Source: Geobacter sp. (GTDB taxonomy: Bacteria > Desulfobacterota > Desulfuromonadia > Geobacterales > Pseudopelobacteraceae). From it: DNA of 32,589 bases. The notes below the pieces were generated by a model, which saw only the letters and a list, made by a program, of their open reading frames with translations, made no database searches and was not told the origin of the DNA. The translations under genes were made by a program, and so were the position numbers. The stretch spans positions 1 through 32,589 of the forward strand of contig VFJW01000091.1 in NCBI GenBank assembly GCA_009885845.1, given 5' to 3'. Shown here piece after piece: positions 9,768 to 30,845 of this stretch; positions within the stretch are counted from its first letter, which is position 1; each line of letters opens with the position of its first letter.

Positions 9768-9914
9768 CCACCACGGAGGCACGGAGAAAACCAGGATCAA
9801 CAGCCTGAACCTATTGGGGATAAACCAAGATTAAATGTTCTGATCCTTTAGTTTGAACCAGAATGAATTTTGTTTTGGTTTTCTCCGTATCTCCGTGTCT
9901 CCGTGTCTCCGTGG
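9768..9914. repeat. intergenic inverted-arm element, CACGGAGG unit type (dprA-topA gap)
   Basis: The left arm at 9768-9793 starts CCACCACGGAGGCACGGAG and continues AAAACCA. The right arm at 9876-9914 is its reverse complement but carries four 8-bp units against two on the left (TCTCCGTA/TCTCCGTG steps). The interior of about 80 bp is not random: it includes TAAACCAAGATTAAA at 9821-9835 and aligns through most of its length with the interior of the element at 23181-23330. It fills most of the 212-bp gap between dprA and topA. Confidence 0.85.
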
Positions 9915-9956
9915 TAAAATGTTTTGAATAAAATTTACGTAAGGATATTAAACTAA

Positions 9957-13694: not shown

Positions 13695-13832
13695 CCACCA
13701 CGGAGACACGGAGACACGGAGAAAATTTTTAAAATGGTCTTTCAGGAGCAGTTAAGTCTTGAATGAATTGTTTTGTACAAAAAAAGTCGTTACAATGCTT
13801 TTTGTATTGTATTTCTCCGTGCCTCCGTGGTG
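13695..13832. repeat. intergenic inverted-arm element, CACGGAGA unit type (trmFO-GlcF-like gap)
   Basis: The left arm at 13695-13725 begins CCACCACGGAGACACGGAG and has three 8-bp units. The right arm at 13812-13832 (TTTCTCCGTGCCTCCGTGGTG) has two. The interior of about 86 bp is AT-rich and does not obviously match the interiors at 9768 or 23181, so arms are conserved while interiors differ. It occupies most of the 163-bp gap; the right arm ends 14 bp before the next ATG. Confidence 0.82.
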
Positions 13833-15127: not shown

Positions 15128-15140
15128 CAAAGCATTTGAA

Positions 15141-15275
15141 ACACAGAGCAACGGAGCAACTGAGCAAAAATAAAGAAGAATTCAAGTTAAAACCAAAAAA
15201 GATAACTCACCATTTTGGTTATGCCTGTTGTTGATGTAACTGTTTGATTTCTCTGTTGCTCAGTTGCTCTGTGGT
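15141..15275. repeat. intergenic inverted-arm element, AGAGCAAC unit type (upstream of XRE regulator)
   Basis: The left arm at 15141-15168 begins ACACAGAGCAACGGAGCAAC and continues TGAGCAAA. The right arm at 15248-15275 is its reverse complement (TTTCTCTGTTGCTCAGTTGC then TCTGTGGT). The repeating unit is 8 bp, AGAGCAAC or close variants, so it has the same period as the CACGGAG type but a different core. The interior is about 80 bp. It makes up much of the 324-bp gap before the regulator; the rest of that gap holds the promoter at 15379. Confidence 0.8.
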
Positions 15276-15378
15276 CCATGAACTGCCGTTTTTAGGTTAA
15301 ACGGTGATATTTTATTTATCCAAAATAAACTTTTTTTACCACTGCTGTTGATTTGTGGCTCAATTGGAAGGAATTTTA

Positions 15379-17810: not shown

Positions 17811-17956
17811 AACCACAGAGCAACAGAGCAACAGAGAACAGCAATGAGGTAAATGCAAATAAAGCGTCTGATTTAAAATCTAAAGAATATCAGAATCTTG
17901 TTTTTATGCAGAATTGATTTGTAAGGTTTTCTCAGTTGCTCAGTTGCTCTGTGGTT
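17811..17956. repeat. intergenic inverted-arm element, AGAGCAAC unit type (carboxyltransferase-biotin carboxylase gap)
   Basis: The left arm at 17811-17838 starts AACCACAGAGCAACAGAGCA and continues ACAGAGAA, a clean run of the 8-bp unit AGAGCAAC. The right arm at 17927-17956 (TTTTCTCAGTTGCTCAGTTG, then CTCTGTGGTT) is its inverted copy. The interior is about 88 bp and AT-rich. It separates two genes whose products must work together in one complex. Confidence 0.82.
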
Positions 17957-21095: not shown

Positions 21096-22748
<1,653 letters not shown>

Positions 22749-22761
22749 AACTAAAACAATT

Positions 22762-22792
22762 CACCACGGAGGCACAGAGACACGGAGAAACC
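22762..22792 (+). repeat. solitary left arm, CACGGAGG unit type, abutting the GxxExxY start
   Basis: CACCACGGAGGCACAGAGAC followed by ACGGAGAAACC. This is the left-arm sequence of the 8-bp-unit family with no inverted partner before the next gene. Its last bases supply the CGGAG that precedes the GxxExxY TTG codon, and the frame of that gene is open back through the arm. The next copy in the same orientation begins at 23181, on the other side of the gene. Confidence 0.85.
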
Positions 22793-23164
22793 TTGAGAGA
22801 CTCGGAACTTACAGAGATAATAATCGGAGCCGCAATTGATGTGCATAAAGTATTGGGGCCAGGCCTTTTAGAATCAGCATACGAAGAGTGTTTTTGTTAC
22901 GAGTTGGGTCTGCGCAGTGTTCTTAGTGAACGCCAAAAATCGCTGCCATTGCTATACAAGGGATTAAAACTAGACTGTGGTTACCGTATGGATGTTGTAG
23001 TTGATAGTCGTGTCGTTGTTGAGCTCAAATCAGTTGATAAAATCCTTCCGATACATGAAGCGCAACTTTTAACCTATTTGAAGTTGTCTGGTATCAGGAC
23101 AGGATTGCTGTTTAATTTTAATGTCACTATTTTGAAAGAAGGCCTACGGAGAATGGTCCTTTAA
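22793..23164 (+). CDS. GxxExxY protein, predicted PD-(D/E)XK nuclease fold
   Basis: A 123-residue protein of the GxxExxY family, named for G24, E27 and Y30 in LGPGLLESAY. Residues D67 (YRMDVVVD), E77 and K79 (VVVELKSV) and Q91 (HEAQLLTYLK) match a PD-(D/E)XK nuclease core; function in the family is not established. The start is uncertain. TTG 22793 has a GGAGAA site supplied by the repeat arm, but the frame remains open upstream through the arm, encoding a TTEAQRHGE peptide, and no in-frame ATG is present. Many database members have such arm-encoded N-termini, as far as I recall. It interrupts the mutase-epimerase pair without a metabolic reason, which suggests insertion. Confidence 0.85.
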   Translation: MRDSELTEIIIGAAIDVHKVLGPGLLESAYEECFCYELGLRSVLSERQKSLPLLYKGLKLDCGYRMDVVVDSRVVVELKSVDKILPIHEAQLLTYLKLSGIRTGLLFNFNVTILKEGLRRMVL

Positions 23165-23180
23165 AATACAAAAAAACATT

Positions 23181-23330
23181 CACCACGGAGACACGGAGGC
23201 ACAGAGAAAACCAAGATCAAGGACCTGAAGATTTCGGGTAAACCAGGATTAAAAGCTAGTAGCCTTTGGTGTAAACCAGATTATCTTACTTGTTTTTGAC
23301 TTTCTCCGTGTCTCTGTGTCTCCGTGGTGA
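23181..23330. repeat. intergenic inverted-arm element, CACGGAGR unit type (GxxExxY-epimerase gap)
   Basis: The left arm at 23181-23212 begins CACCACGGAGACACGGAGGC and continues ACAGAGAAAACC. The right arm at 23301-23330 is its inverted copy (TTTCTCCGTGTCTCTGTGTC then TCCGTGGTGA). The interior of about 88 bp aligns with that at 9768-9914: both hold AAAACCARGATCAA after the arm, TAAACCARGATTAAA near the middle (23239-23253 here) and an AACCAGA block later. The epimerase ribosome-binding site lies just past the right arm. Confidence 0.87.
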
Positions 23331-23344
23331 AAAAGGATTTTGAC

Positions 23345-23749
23345 ATGCTGACAAAAATAAACCATATAGGCATCGCCGTTACATCCCTAGAAGCTACTAT
23401 CCCGTTTTACCGCGACAGTCTCGGCATGGCTTTTGCCGGGATTGAGGAGGTCGCCGAACAGAAAGTGCGGGTTGCGATGCTGGGGGTCGGTGAATCGAAG
23501 ATCGAGCTATTGGAGCCAACGTCAGAAGATAGTCCGGTAGCCAGGTTTATTGAAAAAAACGGTACCGGTATTCATCATATTGCGTACGAAGTCGCGGATA
23601 TCGAGGCGGCTATAGCTGTGTTACTGGCCAGCGGAACCCGCATGGTTGATGAGAAACCGCGCGCTGGCGCCCATGGAACGCGTATAGCGTTTATTCATCC
23701 GAAAAGCAGTCACGGTGTGCTGACGGAGTTGTGTCAGGCGGAGCACTGA
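23345..23749 (+). CDS. mce: methylmalonyl-CoA epimerase
   Basis: A 134-residue vicinal-oxygen-chelate protein that interconverts the (R) and (S) forms of methylmalonyl-CoA, linking the carboxylase product to the mutase substrate. NHIGIAV with H7, KIELLEP with E54, GIHHIAYEV with H77/H78 and VLTELC with E128 supply the expected metal-binding and acid/base positions. Length is normal. The start ATG 23345 (MLTKINHIG) has AAAGGA upstream; an in-frame GTG at 23324 lies inside the repeat arm and is rejected. It is separated from the mutase by the GxxExxY gene and two repeat copies. Confidence 0.95.
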   Translation: MLTKINHIGIAVTSLEATIPFYRDSLGMAFAGIEEVAEQKVRVAMLGVGESKIELLEPTSEDSPVARFIEKNGTGIHHIAYEVADIEAAIAVLLASGTRMVDEKPRAGAHGTRIAFIHPKSSHGVLTELCQAEH

Positions 23750-30671: not shown

Positions 30672-30784
30672 CACCACGGAGGCACTGAGGAAACCAAAAG
30701 CAAAAAACTTTCTGGTTAACCCCAATTAGATTCAGCTTGTGGCCTTGATTTTTCCATGCCTCCGTGCCTCCGTGCCTCCGTGGT
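30672..30784. repeat. intergenic inverted-arm element, CACGGAGG unit type (parB-atpF' gap)
   Basis: The left arm at 30672-30695 (CACCACGGAGGCACTGAGGA then AACC) has about two units. The right arm at 30749-30784 has four (GCCTCCGT steps ending CCGTGGTA). The interior of about 53 bp is shorter but keeps a GGTTAACCCCAATTAGATT stretch that may correspond to the conserved middle of the elements at 9768 and 23181. It starts 15 bp after the parB stop. Confidence 0.8.
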
Positions 30785-30845
30785 AAATTGAATTTTGTTT
30801 AGTTTGGTTTTTTGGAAATAAATATGCCACATCATTTCAATTCCC

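Follow-up and report, generated by a model that had tools for sequence, protein, structure and literature searches.

A small predicted nuclease gene enclosed by inverted tandem-repeat arms in Geobacter points to a gene-plus-repeat element of an undescribed kind

The stretch of DNA analysed here (the window; 32,589 nt, contig VFJW01000091.1 of the Geobacter sp. assembly GCA_009885845.1) carries at 22793-23164, on the + strand, a 123-aa ORF encoding a small PD-(D/E)XK protein of the GxxExxY family, which scores 142.4 bits against TIGR04256 GxxExxY (cut-off 35) and 138.3 bits against PF13366 PDDEXK_3 (cut-off 22). The gene is flanked by ORFs at 21096-22748 and 23324-23749, which we take to encode methylmalonyl-CoA mutase and an epimerase, respectively. 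Around it, and elsewhere in the window, lie arms built of short tandem units, here called type A and type C after their sequence:

22760-22790, + strand: left arm of the gene-bearing element, tandem 8-bp units CACGGAGG CACAGAGA CACGGAGA, the source of a GGAG
23179-23210, + strand: internal same-strand arm, which is the left arm of a nested gene-less element (inverted-repeat search)
23211-23288, no strand: spacer of the nested gene-less element, resembling the spacers of the window element at 9769 and of an element in the corresponding gap of a related genome (G032)
23289-23331, - strand: right arm, 84% complementary to its partner at 23179
9769-9916, no strand: gene-less type-A element (inverted-repeat search, arm pattern)
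13696-13832, no strand: gene-less type-A element (inverted-repeat search, arm pattern)
30672-30785, no strand: gene-less type-A element (inverted-repeat search, arm pattern)
15137-15278, no strand: gene-less type-C element with CACAGAGCAACGGAGCAAC arms (inverted-repeat search)
17811-17956, no strand: gene-less type-C element (inverted-repeat search)

A reading made from the sequence alone (the sequence-only reading) had placed the gene between two same-orientation arms with near-identical short flanks. The + strand arm at 23179 is real, but it proved to be a local complication of a general plan that is an inverted pair, and the flank ATTCACCACGG, although present, belongs to the arm, forming its outer end. 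The left arm, TTCACCACGGAGGCACAGAGACACGGAGAAA, is 97% complementary over 31 nt to the far end of the right arm (22760-22790 with 23301-23331), so that the gene sits within an inverted pair as well. The window thus holds one gene-bearing and one gene-less element side by side in tandem. RNA folding of the whole element is strong (z -5.65), with the outer arms pairing with each other. A known structured RNA family was ruled out, as no Rfam match at gathering level fell within the window.

As that reading had noted, the arm supplies the ribosome-binding site, its GGAG preceding the TTG start at 22793, and the reading frame is open backwards through the left arm (FTTEAQRHGE). The same was seen more widely: among the 79 of 94 loci that had an inverted-repeat score of at least 14, the GxxExxY frame was open into the left arm in 66. 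In 29 of these 66 loci there was no start codon downstream of the arm, so that translation should begin in or upstream of it.

The genome that contains the window (3.27 Mb, 99% complete) holds 36 matches to an 18-base arm pattern at up to 2 mismatches, against 1 for the reversed control, and 11 distinct gene-less doublets of 110-145 bp could be excised among the loci fetched. Type-C arms (CACAGAGCAAC...) are present in it at 15137-15278 and 17811-17956 of the window, and no type-C GxxExxY gene was found in this genome. A second, partial PF13366 match (24 bits) lies within a 459-aa open frame at G000:C140:11075-11257 (L002).

The PD-(D/E)XK residues previously picked out in the protein (D67, E77, K79 and Q91) are conserved: all four are invariant in an 18-row alignment, while in a 42-row alignment D67, K79 and Y95 are invariant and E77 and Q91 are kept in at least 90% of rows. 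The conserved Q91-x3-Y95 presumably fits the RecB/Cas4 group. A structure model of the protein (pLDDT 96.4) had as its nearest solved folds in Foldseek lambda exonuclease and SSO0001 (probability 0.92-0.99), the latter taken here to be a Cas4 protein, followed by AdnA-AdnB and LHK-Exo; none of these matches fell under E 0.001, the nearest lying at E 0.010 to 0.033. Weak matches to Cas4 profiles were obtained for 11 of 18 GxxExxY members (best E 0.0022), as well as for the PADLOC Cas4 profile (E 0.0017). In Pfam at E<=1 the window protein matched, besides PF13366, only a sub-threshold Cas4, and no HUH transposase. By its predicted fold, GxxExxY would be a mini nuclease of the lambda-exonuclease/RecB/Cas4 type. 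No assigned function for this common family was found in the open-access PMC literature, as far as those texts extend.

A GxxExxY gene is present in 121 of 147 related genomes and at least one arm match in 122 of 147, single matches being near chance since the reversed control likewise hits many genomes. Arms were therefore scored free of any motif, by the strongest inverted match that the 200 bp upstream of the domain made with the 200 bp downstream of the stop. Among relatives, 64 of 87 GxxExxY genes reached a score of at least 12, compared with 167 of 1740 mismatched flank pairs and 3 of 118 neighbour ORFs. These 87 genes, from 63 genomes, are those used out of 94 (short flanks and partial matches left out) and comprise the 30 best by E-value, 42 hand-picked among the matches listed, 14 epimerase loci and the window; none came from loci chosen by arm pattern. 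Since 25 of the 87 are copies in the mutase-epimerase gap, 24 of which pass, the fairer figure is that obtained without them, 40 of 62.

The same measure was applied to 80 loci of other phyla, including Acidobacteria, Planctomycetes, Bacteroidetes, Chloroflexota and cyanobacteria, of which 76 were used. Here 49 of 76 loci scored at least 12 (mismatched pairs 227/1520, control ORFs 4/406) and 28 of 76 at least 20 (24/1520 and 0/406); a tandem CRCNRAG pair on both sides was likewise found at 49 of 76 loci and at none of the 406 control ORFs. This default count misses arm pairs where the gene match overlaps the arm, and when such overlap was allowed it rose to 54 of 76, mismatched pairs then numbering 261 of 1520 (up from 227) and control ORFs 9 of 406 (up from 4). 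Methanothrix, the sole archaeal locus in the set, scored 8, below the threshold. The best unit period was 8 in 34, 9 in 13, 10 in 10 and 11 in 5 of the 64 loci of relatives, and 8 in 21 and 9 in 17 of the 49 loci of other phyla. A clear inverted pair (score of at least 12) was absent at 23 of 87 genes of relatives and at 27 of 76 in other phyla. Enrichment of arms at GxxExxY genes, which had been set beforehand as the test of a link between the two, was thus seen in both sets, and the association is firm. The general plan is a single gene within inverted arms of tandem units of about 8 bp, with the core CACRGAG, across phyla.

The same plan was found at genes of the TIGR02436 four-helix-bundle family, which we take to be unrelated to GxxExxY in fold and presumably linked with the S23 protein of the Coxiella intervening sequence (IVS). 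With all 52 TIGR02436 genes used, 43 scored at least 12, as against 61 of 1040 mismatched pairs and 5 of 110 neighbour ORFs, and the best period was 7 in 38 of the 43 loci. The window's genome has six TIGR02436 matches; at the three loci examined (L273, L274 and L275, on its own contigs 65, 163 and 47) genes of this family lie between inverted arms with a best period of 7. When 2954 ORFs were scanned, from loci chosen for GxxExxY, TIGR02436, epimerase or arms, 63 had an inverted-repeat score of at least 20, and 49 of these were GxxExxY or TIGR02436; the remaining 14 looked mostly like host genes flanked by two short elements, or like ORFs that overlap the known genes. In an Acidobacteria MAG, a 154-aa ORF (L330:716-1181) lies in CGCAGAG-type arms after a mutase match and directly 5' of a GxxExxY gene. 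It had no Pfam match and an NCBIfam match at chance level only, and is a possible third gene family.

In a tree of GxxExxY proteins (88 of 94 taken in), most clades have an arm sequence of their own: type A with CACGGAGR, type B with CACAGAGTCACAGAGGACAC, type C with CACGGAGCAACGGAGCAAC, and further types with CACAAAG, CGCAAAG, CACGAAAAG and GCCGATAAAC. Mantel tests of protein against arm distance gave r 0.692 for 53 GxxExxY loci of relatives, r 0.415 for other phyla (39 of 41 loci used) and r 0.406 for 36 four-helix-bundle loci, a value reached in each case by 0 of 2000 permutations. Because arms and gene are physically linked, part of this co-variation is shared descent. At fourfold sites, the other-phyla loci are saturated (identity 0.29 over 741 pairs), so that the likeness of arms across phyla is not leftover synonymous likeness. 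One exception is G007, whose gap gene combines a type-C outer left arm with a protein outside the type-C clade.

The number of arms elsewhere in a genome also follows the type of gene, most of these arms lying in gene-less arm-spacer-arm units. Type-A genes were assigned by hand at no less than 66% identity to the window protein over at least 100 aa, without G045 (68% identity, type-B arms, 17 type-A hits); type-C genes, again by hand, at a minimum of 154 bits in the type-C search and above the score of the window-protein search, without the broken copy of G008. At least 10 type-A arm hits were found in 11 of 11 genomes with a type-A gene and in 40 of 136 without (p 4e-6), and at least 5 type-C arm hits in 11 of 13 genomes with a type-C gene and in 14 of 134 without (p 2e-8), these 14 including the window's own (38 type-C arm hits). 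Raising the type-C threshold to 8 hits gave 9 of 13 versus 11 of 134 (p 1.3e-6). The two cross pairings of gene type and arm type were not significant (p 1 and 0.09), and within the window's genus alone the A-A and C-C associations had p 0.0035 and p 0.0014; all these p values are optimistic, since the genomes are not mutually independent. Enzyme and repeat thus appear to change together.

The expectation that arms would be absent from genomes lacking the gene held only in part. Considering any GxxExxY gene, at least 10 type-A arm hits occurred in 48 of 121 genomes with one and in 3 of 26 without (p 0.006), so that arms are rarer there; but 27 of 147 genomes have 30 or more type-A arm hits and no type-A gene, and in two of these, G043 and G055, each with about 150 type-A arm hits, GxxExxY genes are missing altogether. 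The 30 G055 loci examined yielded no relict of such a gene.

The gap between mutase and epimerase was compared across related species, one genome per species, in 110 of the 127 genomes with an epimerase match. The order of the two genes is kept in 96 of 110; in the other 14 the mutase was not found in the upstream stretch examined, and 7 of these 14 carry a GxxExxY gene there. Gap states were labelled by hand; the gene calls in the gap come from search HMMs built on loci before strand orientation, and the statistics from HMMs rebuilt after it. Of the 96 gaps with a mutase upstream, 30 hold an arm element, broken copies included, and 66 do not. The 30 comprise type A (9), type B (4), type C (10, in two variants), a four-helix-bundle element (1), arm-only type A (1) and an arm-only 7-bp type (5). 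The 66 unlabelled gaps, when rechecked, contained neither a type-A pair nor a type-C unit, and 10 had other inverted repeats. Empty gaps are as short as 8-28 nt.

The comparison of empty and occupied sites that the sequence-only reading had proposed therefore showed empty, gene-less, internally deleted and occupied states. In G032 the gap holds a gene-less element alone, with a spacer similar to the one in the nested element of the window; in G063 an internally deleted type-A gene lies between intact arms (L118, one such copy); and in G007 the layout is the same as in the window, gene plus nested element. At the GxxExxY site of other genomes, G118 has a four-helix-bundle gene in 7-bp arms (L190), which scores below 12 although matching arms are readable, because the frame ends within the right arm. 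On a tree of the flanking proteins (96 of 110 loci used) gap states are interleaved, and relative to the other labelled rows type B requires 4 changes, each of which supported branches force; of the 8 changes that the gap label needs on the GxxExxY tree, 5 are forced. This interleaving and these forced changes indicate that the gap was filled more than once.

Target-site duplications were not seen by eye at the gap, with one genome per species. As the mutase 3' end reads ACGGAGAC in several genomes, arm-like sequence was sought just outside the left arm; an arm-like insertion target was set aside as too weak, the mean score being 6.2 versus 5.5 further out at gap loci and 5.3 versus 5.1 in farther windows at other loci. 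Gaps of genus g6 (L102, L104, L115 and L122) carry an inverted-repeat element of another kind, GTTGTTGAAAAACAGCC ... GGCTATTTTTGAACAACC. At least some copies have a CGTAGCGCTGCTACGCC-like centre, and the element recalls another Geobacter multicopy family described in PMC2700814. Further palindromes, around GTTGCATGCAAC, AGTAGGGATGCTGCATGCAGCATCCCTACT or TAGAGACGCAA, are present in the gaps of L099, L106 and L169, so that the gap hosts many repeat types.

The short elements mostly share arms and not spacers: among 32 elements from three genomes, 44 of 496 spacer pairs exceeded the 99% null level (5 expected), a few spacers being related, as in the window elements at 9769 and 23179 and the G032 element. 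As most spacers are unrelated, no recent burst of copying is visible, and a MITE with a common interior seems a poor general description. The earlier proposal that short elements are gene-less relatives of the gene-bearing one is thus supported by the gene-less, deleted and occupied states of the gap, and qualified by the fact that most share arms only. Among the GxxExxY genes fetched, 25 of 28 pairs of paralogues within one genome are at 65% identity or less, the other 3 belonging to one tandem array, and the best match in another genome has a median of 75%. With paralogues this distant among the fetched genes, the gene itself does not seem to multiply, and the arms are many. Local duplications were observed in G042 (L268), with three near-identical GxxExxY genes about 1.1-1.3 kb apart, and in G032 (L271), where a 1.8-kb tandem duplication contains a GxxExxY gene. 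Carriage as phage cargo was rejected after 0 matches in 50,697 phage records, and as plasmid cargo after 7 in 72,556 plasmid records, all seven predicted to be non-mobilizable.

RAYT genes are flanked by their repeats. In the sections of PMC8049555 on this system, REPINs are inverted doublets with a short and highly diverse spacer, in many copies beside a single-copy gene, as here; they persist, at no fewer than 69 copies, in E. coli genomes that lack the RAYT gene, so that arms outlive the gene in some genomes in both systems. Because RAYT-less E. coli keep REPINs, G043 and G055 weaken the idea of a partnership but do not sink it. Another feature in common is that repeats are more numerous in genomes with the cognate gene, as seen here for GxxExxY arms, and RAYT and REPIN have been reported, in the relevant part of PMC8266576, as co-evolved. 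The comparison with RAYT and REP made in the sequence-only reading therefore stands for doublets, diverse spacers and copy number, but not for the enzyme, which is PD-(D/E)XK here and a HUH transposase there; the arms also differ, being tandem 8-10-bp units here and short palindromes there.

Similar repeats have been described before. The main text of a 2009 account of Geobacter metallireducens (PMC2700814) lists, in the part on repeats, class 1 (GTTGCTYN) and class 2 (TCTCCGTS[Y]) sequences in opposite-strand pairs with variable spacing; class 2 and class 1 pairs look like the type-A and type-C arms here, respectively. That part interprets them as global-regulator sites, with IHF/HU suggested, and does not link them to GxxExxY or four-helix-bundle genes. 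In Xanthomonas, tandem 7-bp GGGAATC heptamers, often in convergent pairs (70 and 75 cases), were reported in 2015 (PMC4692102, main text); they resemble the arms of TIGR02436 genes and differ in being interpreted there as G-quadruplex elements, and the terms four helix, intervening sequence, S23 and transposase are absent from that main text. The Coxiella 23S rRNA IVS, according to the pages of PMC4990558 devoted to it, is a small ORF in terminal inverted repeats with a 28-bp stem, whose mobility is presumed and whose mechanism of movement is not established. It thus shares with the GxxExxY element one small ORF inside stem-forming terminal inverted repeats; those pages mention neither tandem-unit arms nor dispersed gene-less copies. 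The IVS also differs in lying in helix 45 of 23S rRNA and encoding the S23 protein, unlike the window element, which lies between two protein genes and encodes a PD-(D/E)XK protein. In open-access PMC (supplements outside), no link of GxxExxY or TIGR02436 genes to such arms was found.

The partnership of GxxExxY and repeats proposed in the sequence-only reading is upheld as an association, by arm enrichment, type match and repeat number. As its cause we consider it fairly probable that GxxExxY is the enzyme partner of its repeats, in a RAYT-like role. The protein would recognise the arm type that goes with it, most likely when folded into a hairpin or cruciform, and would cut or trim there; arm-spacer-arm units would thereby be copied or maintained at intergenic sites, rarely with the gene. 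GxxExxY would then do for its arms what RAYT does for REPINs, by means of an unrelated enzyme. In the window, recombination between the two same-strand arms could remove the gene and leave a gene-less element like that of G032. Distant paralogues, many arms and arms that outlive the gene are in keeping with a RAYT-like life more than with an insertion-sequence-like one.

It is unlikely, though worth weighing, that the element is of a homing type, in which gene and arms are copied into a preferred intergenic site when a cut made there by the nuclease is repaired. Site preference, not dispersal, would explain why protein types are kept at the gap in several genera: 12 of 13 type-C hits adjoin the epimerase hit of their own genome, and gap copies account for all 4 type-B and all 9 type-C proteins of the tree, a figure biased by the deliberate fetching of gap loci. 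Moreover, pairs from different related genomes at 60-80% identity share a flanking gene in 147 of 458 cases, compared with 79 of 2040 below 50%, and among the genes fetched, gene-bearing copies are not dispersed within a genome. Homing would, however, have to accommodate the dozens of further sites at which these same genomes carry arm-only elements with the same arms, the type-C unit being in 0 of the 66 unlabelled gaps, which leaves no arm-only intermediate, and the 7 of 14 loci that carry GxxExxY where no mutase was found upstream, which shows that the site is not one fixed sequence.

Less probable still is an RNA-level element like the 23S rRNA IVS, with the arms as a transcript stem, serving RNase III processing or masking of the GGAG ribosome-binding site, and the protein as cargo or RNA binder. 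The strong RNA fold of the whole element (z -5.65), the frame open into the left arm (66/79 loci) and the same plan at TIGR02436 genes, presumed kin of the S23 protein of the IVS, an element with a 28-bp terminal stem (PMC4990558), are consistent with it; yet the modelled GxxExxY fold appears nearest to DNA exonucleases, and dispersed gene-less copies that track the gene type in number are left unexplained. That the repeats are host sites for IHF/HU-like regulators or nucleoid proteins, the nuclease gene being a bystander, seems very improbable. Many arms occur without the gene, and similar repeats in G. metallireducens were interpreted in this way in 2009 (PMC2700814, section on repeats), but a bystander would not be expected to have arms of its own type around it in different phyla, where synonymous sites are saturated, nor to co-occur with arms in a type-specific manner.

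Returning to GxxExxY as partner of its repeats, one may go further, in a tentative reading to which we give somewhat less than an even chance, and see in inverted arms of short tandem units around one small gene a broad class of bacterial elements whose gene families are interchangeable, each protein reading the arm type that belongs to it and spreading or maintaining doublets without a known transposase, recombinase or reverse transcriptase. Its members would be GxxExxY with 8-10-bp units, four-helix-bundle genes with 7-bp units, and perhaps others. Bacterial tandem repeats of 7-9 bp were noted earlier with separate, gene-free explanations (PMC4692102 and PMC2700814, in the parts on such repeats). 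If the partnership is true, several of these puzzling tandem-repeat families would gain a partner gene and the orphan nuclease family GxxExxY a substrate, and the matching of arms and proteins by type (A with A, B with B, C with C) opens recognition to direct swap tests. Beside REP/RAYT there would then be a second bacterial system of repeat and enzyme, this one based on a fold of the exonuclease type.
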